Shown: positions 159-10,415 of the stretch, one piece after another
Layout of the letters: each line of letters begins with the position of its first letter
How positions within the stretch are numbered: position 1 is the first letter of the stretch
Source: Armatimonadota bacterium
Lineage (GTDB): Bacteria; Armatimonadota; UBA5829; DSUL01
DNA: 35,271 nt
Assembly: GCA_019136435.1 (NCBI GenBank)
Contig: JAGVUD010000190.1
Coordinates: 1-35,271, forward strand
Direction: 5' to 3'
Made by a program: the position numbers and the translations under genes
The notes under the pieces: generated by a model
Databases searched by the model: none
Seen by the model: only the letters and a program-made list of their open reading frames with translations
What the model was told of the DNA's origin: nothing

Positions 159-1027
159 CCGGAGAGTGCCTGTGCGGCGTGGTAGGAGCTGCGCACCAGC
201 GGGCCGCTCTCAACGTGCCGGAAGCCCATCTCCAGCGCCCTTTCTTTGAACCAGCCGAACTCGTCCGGCGTCACCCATCGCTCGATCGGCAGGTGGTTTG
301 CGGAAGGCCGCATATACTGCCCGATGGTGAGAAAGCTCACTCCGGCGGCGCGCAGGTCTCGGAGTGTCTCGATCACTTCGCCGTCGCTCTCTCCCAGCCC
401 GGCCATGATCCCGCTCTTCGTGGGGATGGAGGGGGCCATCTCAGATGCGGCTCGCAGCACCTGTAGAGAACGATCATACCTGGCCTGAATACGCACCGGC
501 TCTGTCAGGCGCCGAACTGTCTCCACGTTGTGGTTGAAGACGTCCGGCCCGGCCGCGAGCACAGCGGCCACGGCCTCCCGGCTCCCCTCAAAGTCGGGGG
601 TGAGCACTTCGATGGTGGCGGTGGGCATCGTCTGGCGGAGCGCACGGATGCACTCCGCGAAATGGGCCGCCCCTCCGTCCGCGAGATCGTCGCGGGTGAC
701 GGATGTGATGACGACGTGCCGGAGCTTCATTTCCCTGGCGGCTTCGGCGAGGCGGGCCGGTTCGTCCGGGTCAAGCGGCCGCGGCCTGCCCGTGCTGATT
801 GCGCAGAACTTGCACGAGCGCGTGCAGATGTCGCCCATGATCATAAACGTCGCGGTGCCGCTCTTCCAGCATTCTCCCAGGTTAGGGCAGCGCGCGGACT
901 CGCAGACGGTGTGCAGAGACCCGAGCGTGTGCTTCATGCTGTCGTAGATGTCGAACGAGATTGCGCGGGCTCTCATCCACGGTGGCCGCTCGCCGGGAGC
1001 GATGGCGGGTTTCTCGCCGTCGCTCAA
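155..1027 (-). CDS. lipA: Lipoyl synthase (radical SAM)
   Basis: LipA inserts two sulfurs into protein-bound octanoyl groups to make the lipoyl cofactor of 2-oxoacid dehydrogenases such as PDH E2. The 290-residue product is full length. It has the auxiliary-cluster cysteines C42, C47 and C53 (CESARCPNLGEC), the radical-SAM CX3CX2C at C68, C72 and C75 (CTRSCKFC), and a C-terminal RSSY (279-282) carrying the conserved serine. The start is TTG at 1027, overlapping the pdhB stop in TTGA, with GAGGGG eight bases upstream, so translational coupling is likely. It is the last gene of pdhA-pdhB-lipA, which matches its role in maturing the PDH complex. Neither E2/E3 nor lipB is in the window. Confidence 0.97.
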   Translation of the reverse strand: MSDGEKPAIAPGERPPWMRARAISFDIYDSMKHTLGSLHTVCESARCPNLGECWKSGTATFMIMGDICTRSCKFCAISTGRPRPLDPDEPARLAEAAREMKLRHVVITSVTRDDLADGGAAHFAECIRALRQTMPTATIEVLTPDFEGSREAVAAVLAAGPDVFNHNVETVRRLTEPVRIQARYDRSLQVLRAASEMAPSIPTKSGIMAGLGESDGEVIETLRDLRAAGVSFLTIGQYMRPSANHLPIERWVTPDEFGWFKERALEMGFRHVESGPLVRSSYHAAQALSG

Positions 1028-2010
1028 TCCCGGTGCCCCTCGGTCACGCGCAGGCAGGCCTGATAGACGTCCTCTTCACCCGGCACGGCCATCTTCTCGA
1101 GGTTCTTCGCGTAGGGCATCGGAACGTCCACGCCCGAGACGCGCAGGATCGGGGCGTCCAGGTCGTCAAAGGCTTCGGTCTGAATCTGCGCGATCACTTC
1201 GGCGGCCATTCCGCACATCGGCCAGTCCTCTTCGCACACGACGGCCCGGTGGGTCTTGCGGACGCTCTCGACAACAGTGTCAATATCGAGCGGCCTCAGC
1301 GTGCGAAGGTCAACGACTTCTGCCGATATGCCCCGCTCCGCGAGCCGCTCGGCCGCCTTGAGGGCGAACAGCGTCATGCGCGAGTAGGTGATGATGGTGA
1401 CGTCCGCGCCCTCGCGCTTCACGTCCGCCACCCCGAGCGGAACGGCGTAGTCCTCGGCGGGCACTTCGCCTTTGGAGAGATAGATCAGCTCGTGCTCCAG
1501 AAAGATGACCGGGTCCGGGTCGCGGATGGCCGACTTCAGCAGCCCCTTCGCGTCGGCGGGGGTTGCGGGCAGGACGACTTTCAGTCCGGGAACGTGCACG
1601 AACCAGGATTCGAAGTTCTGCGAATGCTGCGCCCCGAGTTGAAGTCCCACGCCCGTCGGCGCGCGCATCACCATCGGCACGTTGTACTGCCCGCCCGACA
1701 TGTAGTAGTACTTCGCGGCGTGGTTGACGATCTGGTCGAGCGCGAGCAGCGAGAAGTTGACGGTCATCATCTCCACGACCGGCTTGAGCCCGGCCATCGC
1801 GGCCCCCACTCCCGCGCCGGCGATGGCCTCCTCCGAGATCGGAGTGTCAATCACGCGGCGCGCCCCGAACTCGGCGAGCAGCCCCTCGCTCACTTTGTAC
1901 GCGCCCTGATATTCGGCGACTTCCTCGCCGATCAGAAACACGTCCGGGTCGGCCCGCATCTCCTCGCGCAGGGCCTGGTTCAGAGCTTCTCTGTAGGTCA
2001 GAATGGGCAT
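1024..2010 (-). CDS. pdhB: Pyruvate dehydrogenase E1 component, beta subunit
   Basis: This is the beta subunit of the heterotetrameric (alpha2beta2) E1 of a 2-oxoacid dehydrogenase complex, most likely pyruvate dehydrogenase. The 328 residues show the transketolase-type pyrimidine-binding domain (about 1-180, with GEEVAEYQGAYKVS and DTPISEEAIAG) followed by the C-terminal transketolase domain (about 195-320, with VVDLRTLRPLD). It starts at ATG 2010, nine bases after the pdhA stop, with CGGAGA just upstream, and its stop overlaps the lipA start. Acetoin or branched-chain E1-beta are related alternatives; linkage to lipA and the close similarity to PDH E1-beta favour pyruvate. Confidence 0.93.
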   Translation of the reverse strand: MPILTYREALNQALREEMRADPDVFLIGEEVAEYQGAYKVSEGLLAEFGARRVIDTPISEEAIAGAGVGAAMAGLKPVVEMMTVNFSLLALDQIVNHAAKYYYMSGGQYNVPMVMRAPTGVGLQLGAQHSQNFESWFVHVPGLKVVLPATPADAKGLLKSAIRDPDPVIFLEHELIYLSKGEVPAEDYAVPLGVADVKREGADVTIITYSRMTLFALKAAERLAERGISAEVVDLRTLRPLDIDTVVESVRKTHRAVVCEEDWPMCGMAAEVIAQIQTEAFDDLDAPILRVSGVDVPMPYAKNLEKMAVPGEEDVYQACLRVTEGHRD

Positions 2011-2018
2011 GGTCTCCG

Positions 2019-3029
2019 TTACTCCCCGGATGCGTAGACGTGGTCGTAGAGCGCATCGGCCTGAGGGAAGGGCGACTCCTCCGCGAACTTCACCGACTCG
2101 TCCACTACGGCGTCAATCTCCGCCGAGATGCCTCGAATCTCTTCGTCCGTTATGAGGCCCGCGCCCAGAAGCTGTTTCTCGTAAATGCTGATCGGGTCGC
2201 GGACGCGCCACTCCTCGACTTCGTCCTTGGTGCGGTAGGTGGCCGGGTCGGCCATCGAGTGTCCGCGATAGCGGTAGGTCTTCGCTTCGATGAACCAGGG
2301 CCCCCGCCCGGCGCGGCATTCGGCCACCACGTCATCCGAGAGCGCGCGTATCGCGAGCAGGTCCATGCCGTCCACATGGGCGCTCTCCATGCCATACCCG
2401 CTTACGCGGCGGTTGAGGTCGGGCACGGCGGATGCGCGTGTGACCTGCGTCCCCATGCCGTAAAGGTTGTTCTCGCAGACGAAGATGACCGGCAGCTTCC
2501 AGAGCGCCGCCATATTGAGCGCCTCGTGAAAGGCCCCTTCGTTTACCGCTCCGTCGCCGAAGAAGCAGACGCAGACCTGATCGCCGCCCCTGTACCTGAT
2601 CGCCAGCCCCACTCCCGTGGCAATCGGCAGCCCGCCGCCCACGATTCCGTCGCCCCCCATGAAGTTGCGCTCGCGGTCGAACAGATGCATGGAGCCGCCC
2701 TTGCCGCGGCTGATGCCCGTCTCCCGGCCGAAAAGCTCCGCCATGATCGCCTTCGGATCGCTGCCCACAGCCAGAATCTGGCCGTGCTCGCGGTAGGTGC
2801 CCATCACGTAATCATCAGGCCGCAGCGCCGAGATGATGCCGACCGCAACAGCTTCCTGGCCGATATACAGGTGGCAGAAGCCCCCGATGGACGCCTGCAT
2901 GTACTGCTTTCCCGCCATCTCCTCGAACCGGCGGATCAGCACCATTTTGCGGTACATCTCGAGGTGTCCTTCGCGAGGGATGGTTCGCAGCCCCTCCGAT
3001 TTCCTCGCCTCAGAGCGTGTTGTCGCCAT
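2019..3029 (-). CDS. pdhA: Pyruvate dehydrogenase E1 component, alpha subunit
   Basis: This is the thiamine-diphosphate-binding alpha subunit of E1, which decarboxylates pyruvate and passes the acetyl group to lipoyl-E2. The TPP motif begins at GDG (about 158-160) and ends at ENN (186-188); the conserved IGQEA, GKGGSMH and YRYRGHS segments are present. I place the start at ATG 3029 (336 residues) because AGAGGA lies six bases upstream; an in-frame TTG at 3047 would add six residues but has no better ribosome site. A 104-bp gap separates it from nuoI. An AT-richer stretch in that gap (near 3045-3080) could hold a promoter, but I see no good -35/-10 pair. Confidence 0.93.
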   Translation of the reverse strand: MATTRSEARKSEGLRTIPREGHLEMYRKMVLIRRFEEMAGKQYMQASIGGFCHLYIGQEAVAVGIISALRPDDYVMGTYREHGQILAVGSDPKAIMAELFGRETGISRGKGGSMHLFDRERNFMGGDGIVGGGLPIATGVGLAIRYRGGDQVCVCFFGDGAVNEGAFHEALNMAALWKLPVIFVCENNLYGMGTQVTRASAVPDLNRRVSGYGMESAHVDGMDLLAIRALSDDVVAECRAGRGPWFIEAKTYRYRGHSMADPATYRTKDEVEEWRVRDPISIYEKQLLGAGLITDEEIRGISAEIDAVVDESVKFAEESPFPQADALYDHVYASGE

Positions 3030-3133: not shown

Positions 3134-3589
3134 CTATTCCAGGCGCTTCTTTACCCGCGCGACCTCGCCCGGAGCGTCAACGAGCAGCCGCTCCTTGCCG
3201 TATATGAAGCTGGAGCGTTCGAAGTCGGCCAGTTCGAAGTCGGGCCCGAGCACGATGGCGCCGGTGGGGCATGCGTCCTCGCAGTAGCCGCAGAATATGC
3301 AGCGCAGCATGTTGATCTCGTACACGGCCGCGTAGCGTTCGCCCGGAGACTTGCGGTCGTCGTCGGTGTTGTCGGCTGCGATGACCTCGATGCAGCGCGC
3401 AGGGCAGGCCCCCGCGCACAGCGAGCAGCCGATGCAGCGCTCCAGCCCGTCCTCGTGACGCAGCAGCTTGTGCCGCCACCGCGCGCGAGCGGACACCGGC
3501 CGCTTTACCTCCGGATAATTGACCGTGGTCGGCTTCCGGAAGACCTGCTTCAGCGTTATTCCGAGACCTTTTACAAACTCAACAAACAA
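3134..3589 (-). CDS. nuoI: NADH-quinone oxidoreductase subunit I
   Basis: NuoI carries the two [4Fe-4S] clusters N6a and N6b that pass electrons from NuoG to NuoB in complex I. The 151-residue product has both motifs: C52, C55, C58, C62 (CIGCSLCAGACP) and C97, C100, C103, C107 (CIFCGYCEDACP). The N-terminus (KGLGITLKQVFRKPTTVNYP) is typical of the family. The start is TTG at 3589, three bases after the TAG of the preceding nuoG segment, with AGGG upstream. In many bacteria nuoH lies between nuoG and nuoI; here it is missing and nuoI follows directly. Confidence 0.94.
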   Translation of the reverse strand: MFVEFVKGLGITLKQVFRKPTTVNYPEVKRPVSARARWRHKLLRHEDGLERCIGCSLCAGACPARCIEVIAADNTDDDRKSPGERYAAVYEINMLRCIFCGYCEDACPTGAIVLGPDFELADFERSSFIYGKERLLVDAPGEVARVKKRLE

Positions 3590-3592
3590 TCG

Positions 3593-4729
3593 CTAGCCCT
3601 GTCTCTGCTCCGCCAGCGCCCGCGGATGAATTCCGTTGACGCCCAGACGGCCCCATTCAACACCGGCGTAGCCGTCTGCCTCCCGCGTCACCTGTTCGAA
3701 GATCTCCTCAACGGATGCCGGCAGCCACGGATTCCCGAGCGCCTGTGCCAGGTCCGCCGCTATCTGCCAGACCGGCTTCGCGCGCCCGCGCGGGCGGATG
3801 GCCCGGAAGACCCGCTGAATTCGCCCGTCCGTGTTGCTGAAGGTGCCGCCCGTTTCCAGAACCGTCAGGCACGGCAGCGCCACATCCGGACTCACGGGCA
3901 GGCTATCCGCCGCCCAGCCCATATACACAATCGCTTCCAGTCTGCCGAGCGCGTCCTTCACAAGGTCCGCATCCAGATCCAGAAGCGGTTCGGCTCCGGC
4001 CAGGAAGAGCGCCTTGATCCTGCCGTCCCTCGCCGCCTGCAGCATCTGCGCGCCTGAAAGTCCGCCATCCGGCGCGGGCAGGATGCCCAGATCGAGCGCG
4101 CCTCTGCTGTTGCAGGAGGGCAGCACCGCGACCAGGCGCGCCTGCTCGCCGAGCGAGCGCGCGAGGGCGCCGAGCGCCGCAATCAGCGAGGCGTCTTCGG
4201 TCTCGGCAAGGCGGGAGCCAAGAACCACCACAGACGGCGAGGGCTCATCGCGCTCTGCAATCTGCTTCGCAAGCGCCTCGACAGCCGCCGCCGCCTTGCC
4301 CGGCTCGTAACGGACCTTCGCGGCGGCGTATCCGTCCAACTCAACATCAGAGCCATGCACGCTGATCAGCGCCGCCCCGTCCTGCCGGACGGCCTTCTTA
4401 ACGCGAAGCTCCGTTACGGGCTGCTCGCGGCTCAGATCCACGCCGATTGTGATGATCCGGGCGGCGGCGTCAATGTCCACCAGGGTTCCGGCCGCAAAGC
4501 CTGCCTCGCGGCCGGCGCGGGCGATGTCGGCCAGGGCCGCATCGCGCTTCCGGGCGCTGTGGTCGAGGTTCTTCTCGCCCAGCGCTTCGCGCGCGAGCTT
4601 CGCAATCGCGTACAGGTTTTCGTTCGTCATCGCCGGGGACGCCATAATGCCCAGCGTTCCCGCTTTCGAGTGCTCCGAGAGCGTCGCCGCCGCCCGCACG
4701 AGCGCCTGCTGCCAGGTGGCGTTCGTCAA
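3593..4729 (-). CDS. nuoG: NuoG C-terminal half (molybdopterin-oxidoreductase-like), beyond an in-frame amber codon
   Basis: This 378-codon frame matches the molybdopterin-oxidoreductase-like half of NuoG, with the typical IMASPAMTNENLYAIAKLAR, GVDLSREQP and LPCLTVLETGGTFSNTDGR segments. It is in the same frame as the upstream NuoG segment, separated only by TAG (4733-4735) and one GAG codon. The only start near the junction is TTG at 4729, but the GGAG before it abuts the codon with no spacer, and the next ATG lies 28 codons inside conserved sequence. Reading through the TAG gives a continuous protein of about 665 residues, close to the roughly 690-residue NuoG seen in alphaproteobacteria. 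It may be a nonsense mutation, a readthrough product, a real split gene or a sequence error. Confidence 0.85.
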   Translation of the reverse strand: MTNATWQQALVRAAATLSEHSKAGTLGIMASPAMTNENLYAIAKLAREALGEKNLDHSARKRDAALADIARAGREAGFAAGTLVDIDAAARIITIGVDLSREQPVTELRVKKAVRQDGAALISVHGSDVELDGYAAAKVRYEPGKAAAAVEALAKQIAERDEPSPSVVVLGSRLAETEDASLIAALGALARSLGEQARLVAVLPSCNSRGALDLGILPAPDGGLSGAQMLQAARDGRIKALFLAGAEPLLDLDADLVKDALGRLEAIVYMGWAADSLPVSPDVALPCLTVLETGGTFSNTDGRIQRVFRAIRPRGRAKPVWQIAADLAQALGNPWLPASVEEIFEQVTREADGYAGVEWGRLGVNGIHPRALAEQRQG

Positions 4730-4732
4730 CTC

Positions 4733-5590
4733 CTAGCCGCTCTTCAGCTTAGGTTCCAGCAGGCGGCGTTCGTTCACGAAGCCGAATCCGAACCGACCCG
4801 CGTCGCACAGCCAGCCGTCGTCCGTGTGCCTGTTCTCGCGCGACCAGTACCGGACAACCTCGCTTCCGTCCCGCGTGTCCACGCGGATGTTGCACCCTGC
4901 CGCGCACCCCGTGCAGACTCCGGGCGAGTGCGCGACCTCCCACGTCCGGCCGAAGAAGCGGGTCGGAGCGCCCGTCAGAGCGCCGACGGGGCACAGTTCA
5001 ATCGTGTTGCCCGCGAACTGACTGTCGAACGGCTGGTCCGGATGCACGCCGATCTCCTGCCCGTTGCCGCGCTCGAACACGCCGAGCTGCTCGTGGCCGG
5101 AAATCTCCTGGCAGAACCGCACGCAGCGGAAGCACATAATGCAGCGTTCGCGGTCGAGCAGGATGTTGGGCCCGATCTGGAGCGGCTTCTCCCATCGTCT
5201 CTTGGCGAACGTGTAGCGGCTCTGGCCCGGCCCGAACTTGTAGGTGTAGTCCTGAAGCGGGCATTCCCCGCCCTTGTCGCAGATGGGGCAGTCGAGCGGG
5301 TGGTGCACCAGCAGGAACTCGAGCATCCCGCGGCGCGCCTTCTCGACCCGGGCGTTGTTCGTGTGGACGACCATGCCCTCTTTGACCGGGGTGGTGCAGC
5401 TCGCGACCAGCTTCGGCATCCCCTCGATTTCAACCAGGCACATCCGGCAGGCGCCGACCGGCGCGAGCTTCGGATGGTAGCAGTAGACCGGTATCAGAAT
5501 GCCCGCCTGCGCCGCCGCCTCCACCAGAAGCGTGCCCGGCTCCACCTGCACCGTCCTGCCGTCAATTGTCAGAGTCACCAGATCAGCCAT
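4733..5590 (-). CDS. nuoG: NuoG N-terminal half (Fe-S cluster domains), ending at an in-frame amber codon
   Basis: This is the iron-sulfur part of the complex I subunit NuoG. In order: a [2Fe-2S] ferredoxin domain (C37, C48, C51, C65); the His/Cys motif of the next cluster (H97, C101, C104, C110); a further cluster motif (C150, C153, C156, with C200); and a molybdopterin-oxidoreductase-type site (C226, C229, C233, C262), the extra N7 cluster found in only some bacteria. The start is ATG at 5590. The frame ends at TAG after LLEPKLKSG, exactly where normal NuoG continues into ...ATWEEAL-like sequence; the same frame resumes as ELTNATWQQAL. TAG is a normal stop in many other genes of the window, so codon reassignment is unlikely. 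Confidence 0.9.
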   Translation of the reverse strand: MADLVTLTIDGRTVQVEPGTLLVEAAAQAGILIPVYCYHPKLAPVGACRMCLVEIEGMPKLVASCTTPVKEGMVVHTNNARVEKARRGMLEFLLVHHPLDCPICDKGGECPLQDYTYKFGPGQSRYTFAKRRWEKPLQIGPNILLDRERCIMCFRCVRFCQEISGHEQLGVFERGNGQEIGVHPDQPFDSQFAGNTIELCPVGALTGAPTRFFGRTWEVAHSPGVCTGCAAGCNIRVDTRDGSEVVRYWSRENRHTDDGWLCDAGRFGFGFVNERRLLEPKLKSG

Positions 5591-5624: not shown

Positions 5625-7406
5625 TCACCTGTCCACGTCTCCCAGAACGATGTCTATGCTTCCGATGGTTGCGACGGCATCGGCGACCAGTCCTCCCTGA
5701 AGCATTACGGGAAGCGCCTGGAGGTTGGCGAACGAGGGAGTCCGCGCGCGCATCCGGTAGGGTTTCGGCGAGCCGTCGCCGGCAATGTAGAACGACAGCA
5801 GCCCGCGCCCGGTTTCGGTCGGAACGTGAGCCTCTCCGTGCGGGGCCGTGAACCCGATCGTCGAGATCAGAAAATGGTGAATGAGACTCTCCATGCTGTT
5901 GTCGAGTTCATTCTTGGGAGGCGGGATCATTTTGCGGTCGTTCGTCTGAACGGGCCCGGGCTCCAGCCGGTTCATCGCCTGCCGTATGATCTTGTGGCTC
6001 TGGCGCAACTCCTCGATGCGGCACAGATACCGGTCGTAGACATCGCCGTGCGTTCCGGCGGGGATCTCGAACTCGTACGTCTCGTATCCGCAGTATGGCT
6101 CGGCCTTGCGGATGTCCCAGGCGAGGCCGCTTCCGCGCAGCGACGCGCCGCTGACGCCGTACGCAAGCGCGTCATCAAGTGCCAGCCTGCCGACTCCGCG
6201 CGTGCGCTCGAGCCAGATCGGGTTTTTGGTCAGCAGGGTCTCGTACTCGCCCACGCGGCTGGGGAATACGCGCATGAACTGCTCGAGCGCGGGCATGAAC
6301 TCGTCCGGAACATCCTCGCGAAGCCCGCCCGGGCAGATGAAGCTCGTCATCATCCGCACGCCGGAGATCATCTCGAACATGTCCAGAATCTGGTCGCGTT
6401 CGCGGAAGCAGTAGAAGAACGGGCTCATCGCGCCCATATCGAGCGCGTGCGTTCCCAGCCACACGAGATGCGACTGGATGCGCGTCAGCTCGGCGAGTAT
6501 CACGCGCAGCACCGTCGCGCGCGGCGGCGCCTCCACGCCAACCAGCTTCTCGACCGACAGCGAATACGCCAGGTTGTTTCCGAGCGGAGAGAGATAGTCC
6601 ATCCGGTCGGTGAGCGTGAGCGCCTGCTGAAAACTGAGCGTCTCGGCGGTCTTTTCGATTCCCGTGTGAAGGTAGCCGATATCGGGAAGCGTCCGGGTTA
6701 TGTTCTCGCCGTCGAGCTCGATGAGGAGGCGCAGCACTCCGTGTGTGCTGGGGTGCTGCGGGCCCATGTTCAGGATCATGCGCCCGTCCGCGTCCGGCTG
6801 ACCGTCTGGCCCGGCGGCGGGCTCGATAAGCTGCGTGTACGATCCCGGCGTGGTCTCGAGCGCCTGCCACCCCGCGAATGCGTCCTGCCCGGGAGCGGGC
6901 GGAAGCGTCTGCGGCTCGACGTCGCCGAAGTTGCCCGAGAACTGCACCTGCTCGCCGTTGATGGGATAGTCCTTGCGCAGGGGATGTCCGCGCCAGTGCT
7001 CCGGCATCAGAATGCGCCGCGGGTCGGGATGGCCGTTGAAGCTGATCCCGAACATGTCCAGAAGCTCGCGCTCGTGCCAGTTCGCGCCCGCGTAGATGTC
7101 CGATATCGAGTCCACCGCGGGCGCGCTCTCGTCGAGCTTCACTTTGTAGTGAAGATGCCGCTTCTGCCCGGTTGAGTAAACGGTGTAGGTCAGGTCGAAG
7201 CGCGGCGATTCGAAGAGATAGTCAATGCCGCCGATGTCCGCGAAGAAGTCGAAGCTCTGCGAGCGCGCCCACTGCGTGAACTCGCGTACGCGCGGGCCGC
7301 TGACGACGATGGAGCCCTCGCCGGACGGGCGGTCGGAGAGACTGATGTCTTCCCCGAAGCGCTCCCGCGCCTGCTCGAAAAGCCGTCTGGTGTCTTCTAG
7401 ATGCAC
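5625..7406 (-). CDS. nuoCD: NADH-quinone oxidoreductase subunit C/D fusion
   Basis: This single 593-residue protein combines NuoC (about 1-160, with the hallmark ANWHERELLDMFGISFNGHP and LRKDYP) and NuoD (about 205-593, beginning near ILNMGPQHPSTHGVLR). A Pro/Gly/Ala-rich linker at about 165-205 joins them. NuoD forms part of the quinone-binding site next to NuoB; NuoC is a peripheral-arm subunit. The C-terminus (GDVDR) is that of a complete NuoD. C/D fusions occur in several lineages, including Escherichia. The start is GTG at 7406, 19 bases after the nuoB stop, with only a weak ribosome site. nuoG starts 34 bases downstream; nuoE and nuoF, usual at this point, are absent. Confidence 0.95.
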   Translation of the reverse strand: MHLEDTRRLFEQARERFGEDISLSDRPSGEGSIVVSGPRVREFTQWARSQSFDFFADIGGIDYLFESPRFDLTYTVYSTGQKRHLHYKVKLDESAPAVDSISDIYAGANWHERELLDMFGISFNGHPDPRRILMPEHWRGHPLRKDYPINGEQVQFSGNFGDVEPQTLPPAPGQDAFAGWQALETTPGSYTQLIEPAAGPDGQPDADGRMILNMGPQHPSTHGVLRLLIELDGENITRTLPDIGYLHTGIEKTAETLSFQQALTLTDRMDYLSPLGNNLAYSLSVEKLVGVEAPPRATVLRVILAELTRIQSHLVWLGTHALDMGAMSPFFYCFRERDQILDMFEMISGVRMMTSFICPGGLREDVPDEFMPALEQFMRVFPSRVGEYETLLTKNPIWLERTRGVGRLALDDALAYGVSGASLRGSGLAWDIRKAEPYCGYETYEFEIPAGTHGDVYDRYLCRIEELRQSHKIIRQAMNRLEPGPVQTNDRKMIPPPKNELDNSMESLIHHFLISTIGFTAPHGEAHVPTETGRGLLSFYIAGDGSPKPYRMRARTPSFANLQALPVMLQGGLVADAVATIGSIDIVLGDVDR

Positions 7407-7425: not shown

Positions 7426-7956
7426 CTATTTCTTCCACGGCGAGACCACTTTCTCTCTTGGCGCGGGGGTCAGGACTCTGCCGCCGGGCACCGCCTCGCC
7501 CGCGCGGATCTTCTCCTGAAGCCGCGTTATCGCGTAGAGCAGGGCGTCGGGGTTCGGAGGGCAGCCGGGAATGTAGACGTCCACGGGCACCACCTTGTCC
7601 ACGCCCTGAACGATCGCGTAGTTATTGAACACGCCGCCGCACGACGAGCAGGCGCCCATCGCGATGACCCATCGCGGCTCGGCCATCTGCTCGTAAAGCC
7701 GCCGTATCACCGGTGCCATCTTCATCGAGACGCGGCCGGAGACGATCATGAGGTCGGCCTGGCGGGGGGACGGCCGGAAGACCTCGGCCCCGAATCGCGA
7801 GATATCGAACCGTCCGGCGACGGTGGACATCATCTCGATGGCGCAGCAGGCGAGGCCGAACGAAAACGGCCACAGGGATGAGCTCTGCGCCCATTTAGCC
7901 AGCTTGTCCACTGTCGAGAAGACGATGCCCGGGACGGCATCCTGAGATCCGCTCAT
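7426..7956 (-). CDS. nuoB: NADH-quinone oxidoreductase subunit B
   Basis: NuoB holds cluster N2, the last Fe-S cluster before quinone. The 176 residues contain the tandem C37-C38 ([10 protein letters not shown]), C103 (MGACSSCGG) and C132 (IPGCPPNP), which are the four N2 ligands. It is the first gene of the - strand nuo run, starting at ATG 7956 with AAGGAA about ten bases upstream. No nuoA precedes it; the upstream side is the 308-bp divergent spacer shared with hicB. The nuo promoter must lie there, but I cannot assign a convincing -35/-10 on this strand. Confidence 0.96.
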
Positions 7957-9901: not shown

Positions 9902-10415
9902 CTATCTATTGCGAATTACCTTTGCCGGAATGCCGCCCACGACAACCCCCGGCGGAACGTCCTTCGTCACGACTGCTCCCGCCGCGACAACCGAGCCGTC
10001 GCCGATCGTGACTCCGGGAGTGATGACGGCGAAGTTGCAGATCCAGACGTCCTTGCCGATGATGCGTGTGCGCGATGATGGTGCAGAACTGCGACAGCAG
10101 CGTATGGTCGCCGATTTCGATACGCGCGCCGCCAGTGCGCACGTTGCAGAACTCCCCGATGCCCGTGCGCTTGCCGATAATCAGCGCGGCGTTGTTCTCC
10201 TTGGGCTCCCGCGTCTCGTTGGTGATCCAGACCATGCTGTGCTGCAGAATCGCCGAGCCTTCGCCCATTTCGAACGCACACCAGGGGTCCCACTTGATGT
10301 CCGCCGAGTAGTGGATGCTCGGGAACCGCCGGCGTATTTCCCACGCGGCGATATCGTTCTTTATGACATGCTTGGCGCGTCCCCAGACATCGAGCGCATA
10401 GCTGCCCCAGTTCAT
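9902..10415 (-). pseudogene. Hexapeptide-repeat acetyltransferase, frameshifted
   Basis: Residues 1-133 in the first frame (start ATG 10415) carry left-handed beta-helix hexapeptides such as [26 protein letters not shown], ending at CTIIAHTH. The C-terminal half continues in a different frame: [37 protein letters not shown] and [11 protein letters not shown], ending at TAG 9902-9904. This is the classical WbbJ/LacA-type C-terminus, so a gain of one or loss of two bases near 10060-10080 breaks the gene. Such enzymes O- or N-acetylate sugars. It sits between two glycosyltransferases; its ATG overlaps the GT2 stop (ATGA). A sequencing error is as likely as true inactivation. Confidence 0.82.

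Follow-up and report, generated by a model that had tools for sequence, protein, structure and literature searches.

An in-frame amber codon interrupting nuoG in an Armatimonadota MAG is very probably an isolated nonsense lesion

Introduction

The gene described here belongs to the family of the 75-kDa subunit of complex I (NuoG, NDUFS1 or Nqo3; TIGR01973). It has the domain order and length of that family once an in-frame TAG is read through, and it lies in the shared neighbourhood nuoB-nuoCD-nuoG-nuoI; the TAG itself is a difference, found in no other member examined. A divided form of the same subunit is known from Euglena gracilis, whose complex I contains a split NDUFS1A/NDUFS1B, both nuclear-encoded subunits (PMC10884005). 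The break in the Euglena protein falls inside the Rossmann-like subdomain II and is accompanied by extra stabilising elements (PMC10884005).

We analysed a 35,271-nucleotide stretch of DNA (hereafter the window), one whole contig of a 3.43 Mb metagenome-assembled genome (MAG) in 548 contigs that is 80.7% complete. An earlier note on this DNA had drawn attention to the interrupted nuoG and offered a recent nonsense mutation, a sequence error, programmed readthrough, a suppressor system or a true two-subunit split as explanations. In an effort to weigh these options we compared the locus with its homologues, with the signals around the stop and with other interrupted genes of the same MAG.

Results

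The minus strand of the window carries nuoB, nuoCD, nuoG and nuoI (Table 1); next come genes for pyruvate dehydrogenase and lipoyl synthase, which were named from their translations. The nuoG frame is not continuous but is broken by a TAG at 4735-4733 (minus strand context AAG AGC GGC TAG GAG TTG ACG AAC). The earlier note had placed this codon correctly, giving no strand, and had predicted that reading through it would yield a seamless NuoG of about 665 residues. This holds: the read-through product is otherwise seamless, has 665 residues and scores 534.5 bits (E 4e-160) against TIGR01973, above the curated cut-off of 470.05 bits. The halves taken alone reach 407 bits (N-terminal) and 110 bits (C-terminal), each below the 470-bit cut-off. 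The same note had put the split exactly between the Fe-S and molybdopterin-type parts, which is nearly right; the break lies 13 residues past the Molybdop_Fe4S4 match (223-273) and already within the Pfam Molybdopterin match (276-616), by 10 residues.

Table 1 Coordinates of the interrupted nuoG, its operon neighbours and other mid-gene stops in the same MAG (G000; C, contig). Features given without a contig are in the window.
Feature	Location	Strand	Remarks
nuoB	7426..7956	-	Same operon as nuoG; name from translation
nuoCD	5625..7406	-	Same operon as nuoG; name from translation
NuoG N-terminal part (2Fe-2S and 4Fe-4S domains)	4733..5590	-	285 codons (285 aa), ATG start
In-frame TAG in nuoG	4733..4735	-	Stop absent from all homologues covering the site
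NuoG C-terminal part (molybdopterin-oxidoreductase-like)	3593..4729	-	378 codons, first possible start TTG
nuoI	3134..3589	-	TTG start 3 bases after the nuoG stop, same frame
CehA/McbA-family metallohydrolase, in-frame TAG	L161 (G000:C96) 7742-7744	-	NCBIfam match spans the TAG
LCP (LytR-CpsA-Psr) family gene, TAG	L178 (G000:C450) 478-480	-	TAG four residues before the domain
AAA ATPase frame, TAG just before the ATP-binding part	L159 (G000:C19) 2294-2296	+	From the survey; may be a gene start
Large conserved protein, in-frame TGA	L210 (G000:C109) 1027-1029	-	Relatives 59-69% identical, intact

A search of the MAG for a second, intact copy of NuoG found none. The MAG also encodes intact nuoF- and nuoH-like genes away from this locus (G000:C541 18402-20516, minus strand). 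A second nuoH-like gene is located at G000:C97 560-1558 (plus strand).

The homologue set comprised 109 nuoG loci from several phyla (Armatimonadota, Eremiobacterota, Actinomycetota and others), of which 108 cover the site; the one left out ends at its own contig end. None of these 108 has a stop within about 30 residues of the site, and none has a two-gene nuoG layout; among the loci examined, this assembly alone shows it. Three relatives from the same family, G001, G003 and G002, carry an unbroken nuoG that is 63, 63 and 58% identical, respectively (tblastn), within the same gene order as the nuo region studied here. Another genome of the same genus was not among the relatives listed by the search. 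The residue aligned to the TAG is Gly in 60 of the 108 homologues, Asp in 16 and Arg in 10, with others in the remainder. The earlier note had proposed such an alignment, expecting CAG, GAG or AAG at this codon in relatives if the stop were an error or a private mutation. All relatives are indeed intact at the site, but mostly with Gly rather than a residue encoded by one of these three codons. Because the aligned residue varies among homologues, the site is best read as a tolerant position near the domain border. Turning a Gly codon into TAG takes two substitutions; a single change would therefore require a different residue to have been present already in this lineage.

In an effort to detect decay downstream of the stop, relative-rate counts were made of residues unique to one of three lineages. 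In the N-terminal half the MAG studied here has 18 such residues, G001 has 18 and G002 has 28; the corresponding counts for the C-terminal half are 52, 43 and 65. The C-terminal half evolves faster in all three lineages and not specially in that of the interrupted gene. These counts show no decay of the C-terminal half and no clear relaxed selection. Since the C-terminal half lacks extra divergence, the sequence comparison indicates a stop that is recent, or harmless, or false.

The signals for a restart are modest. The first possible start, a TTG, follows the TAG by 3 bases, and the sole good match to the anti-Shine-Dalgarno sequence touches it; pairing at a usable distance is weak (-2.7 kcal/mol), in agreement with the earlier note, which had judged this restart poor. 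Later possible starts in the C-terminal half are a GTG at codon 10 and an ATG at codon 28. Within this operon, nuoI, nuoG and nuoCD have starts with similarly weak pairing (-3.0 to -3.1). Moreover, the junction of the C-terminal nuoG part with nuoI stays in one frame and reads TAG CGA TTG (window 3589-3595, minus strand), the same TAG-NNN-TTG layout as at the stop within nuoG. At that junction nuoI is a genuine gene, and its relatives have GTG where it has TTG. Given these similarly weak operon starts and the shared layout at nuoI, reinitiation at the TTG is possible, and this organism could conceivably use a coupled TTG start. A downstream hairpin aiding readthrough was considered and rejected, as the RNA structure there is not unusual (z +1.16).

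TAG is an ordinary stop codon in this organism, as had been claimed before. It ends 13 of the 28 predicted genes of the window, the two NuoG TAGs included, as well as 203 of the 534 coding-like frames surveyed across 808 kb of the MAG; genes such as purQ and proB (named from translations) begin directly after some of these codons. The residues aligned to in-frame TAGs are Gly in nuoG, Ser in the hydrolase and Asn, Asp or Lys in the LCP gene, with no fixed residue among them. Amber reassignment was rejected on both grounds, and the earlier view that it is unlikely is upheld. An amber suppressor tRNA, for which the earlier note had proposed a search, was not found: none of the 32 tRNAs recovered with RF00005 has a CUA anticodon, in a MAG that is incomplete and from which many isoacceptors were not recovered. 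The best match to PylS in this incomplete genome reaches 28 bits against a cut-off of 178 bits, and pyrrolysine was rejected as no match lies above the cut-off. A selenocysteine-like use is not applicable, the codon being TAG and not TGA. Counted from the first Cys of the last Fe-S motif, the site is about 60 residues further on, and it does not correspond to the Mo-ligand position of formate dehydrogenases.

A codon-bias survey for in-frame stop pairs covered 808 kb, about a quarter of the genome, and returned 25 pairs, most of which by inspection are neighbouring genes with their own starts. About five are mid-gene stops, that of nuoG included (about four TAG, one TGA and no TAA, a classification made partly by inspection). 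The CehA/McbA hydrolase has an unbroken closest relative (78% identity) that carries Ser at the TAG site, and the LCP gene lacks about 24 residues compared with its relatives. The AAA ATPase frame is the weakest mid-gene case and may be a gene start, because an ATG follows two codons after its TAG. An OB-fold/PqqD pair (L145) was rejected as a mid-gene stop, having turned out to be two genes. Separately, an acyltransferase-like gene in the window (9906-10415, minus strand) contains a clean frameshift near 10060, with ...TIIAHTHH in one frame and the continuation in another.

The spectrum of random nonsense changes expected from codon usage is 0.6 TAG, about 0.2 TGA and about 0.2 TAA, under which at least four TAG among five stops has a probability of 0.34. 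The observed 4:1:0 mix agrees with this expectation; it fits random nonsense changes and gives no sign of a TAG-specific cause. If all five stops in about 205,000 codons were errors, roughly 3 in 10,000 bases would be wrong. Such a rate is plausible for a thinly covered MAG, and an ordinary load of damaged genes fits as well.

Discussion

The TAG is very probably an isolated, unprogrammed nonsense lesion in a nuoG that is otherwise an ordinary single gene; its source would be a sequence error or a private mutation. We infer this cause from the stop in the assembly, the intact relatives, the undecayed 3' half and the similar lesions elsewhere in the MAG. The two corresponding options of the earlier note, a nonsense mutation or a sequence error, are the ones that gain support, from the unbroken relatives as well as from the other isolated stops and the frameshift. 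We lean slightly towards a base error in this fragmentary metagenome assembly; the alternative would be a recent private nonsense mutation or a strain variant. A wrong base would mean that the cell makes full-length NuoG as usual. With a genuine TAG, translation would end behind the Fe-S part, little or none of the molybdopterin-like part would be produced, and complex I would be impaired unless slight natural readthrough or reinitiation rescued it. The complex I gene content mildly favours an error or a very recent event, in that a functional complex I would need the interrupted nuoG: intact genes match NuoF and NuoH, and the search turned up no other copy of NuoG. As a counterpoint, a tolerant site near a domain border is where a real split is also expected.

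Such a split would entail two NuoG subunits, the second made by termination-reinitiation at the TTG, with both assembling into complex I. The position of the break at the domain border, the continued conservation of the C-terminal half, the nuoI start at a TTG 3 bases after a TAG in the same operon and the weak Shine-Dalgarno pairing of other nuo starts would all suit it, and Euglena complex I, with its split NDUFS1, provides a precedent (PMC10884005). We nonetheless consider it unlikely, as no split occurs in any of the 108 relatives, the strong Shine-Dalgarno match touches the TTG and leaves weak pairing at a usable distance, the junction has no added sequence, and the same MAG contains other lesions of this type. 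This option of the earlier note found no positive support.

Nor did programmed readthrough or a suppressor system, by which the TAG would be decoded in part of the passages, through a suppressor tRNA or leaky near-cognate decoding, to give full-length NuoG. Conservation of both halves in one frame and the several mid-gene stops of this MAG that are TAG would be compatible with such decoding. Against it stand the failure to find a CUA tRNA among the 32 in the incomplete MAG or a PylS above the cut-off, the unremarkable downstream structure and the differing residues aligned to the TAGs of different genes; many ordinary genes end in TAG, and the excess of TAG is predicted by codon usage. We regard it as improbable, slightly more so than a split. 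In-frame TAGs in several genes could also be taken to mean that the codon has been reassigned to sense in this lineage. The stop counts in the window and in the wider MAG, with other genes starting right after TAG, and the lack of a common residue at the TAG sites already largely refute this, and we give it almost no credence.

It is unlikely that a working complex I here contains a NuoG very recently divided by an amber codon into two coupled subunits, or one kept intact through low-level readthrough. Were the TAG real and both halves present in the cell, the locus would offer a bacterial parallel to the divided NDUFS1 of Euglena, observed at the very start of the process. A literature search for a split bacterial NuoG returned nothing useful.

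Set beside the known systems, the locus resembles the Euglena split in that the same subunit is divided roughly between its Fe-S and molybdopterin-enzyme-like parts. It differs in consisting of one operon and one stop codon, with no added sequence and no split relative; the Euglena precedent makes a split mechanistically possible, but nothing in the nuoG data requires one. With amber recoding by pyrrolysine or a suppressor tRNA it shares an in-frame TAG flanked on either side by conserved sequence. It departs from those systems in that no PylS above the cut-off and no CUA tRNA were found, no residue is fixed at the TAG sites and TAG is an ordinary stop. Draft MAGs likewise contain base errors and genes interrupted by nonsense codons, as isolated, clean lesions scattered over unrelated conserved genes with intact relatives; compared with these, nothing distinctive was found here. 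The nuoG stop most likely reflects a sequence error or a private mutation, not a novel mode of gene division or decoding. It serves as a caution that in a MAG an amber codon which cleanly interrupts a frame can mimic recoding or gene fission; this one sits among several comparable lesions of a fragmentary assembly and is shared by no relative.
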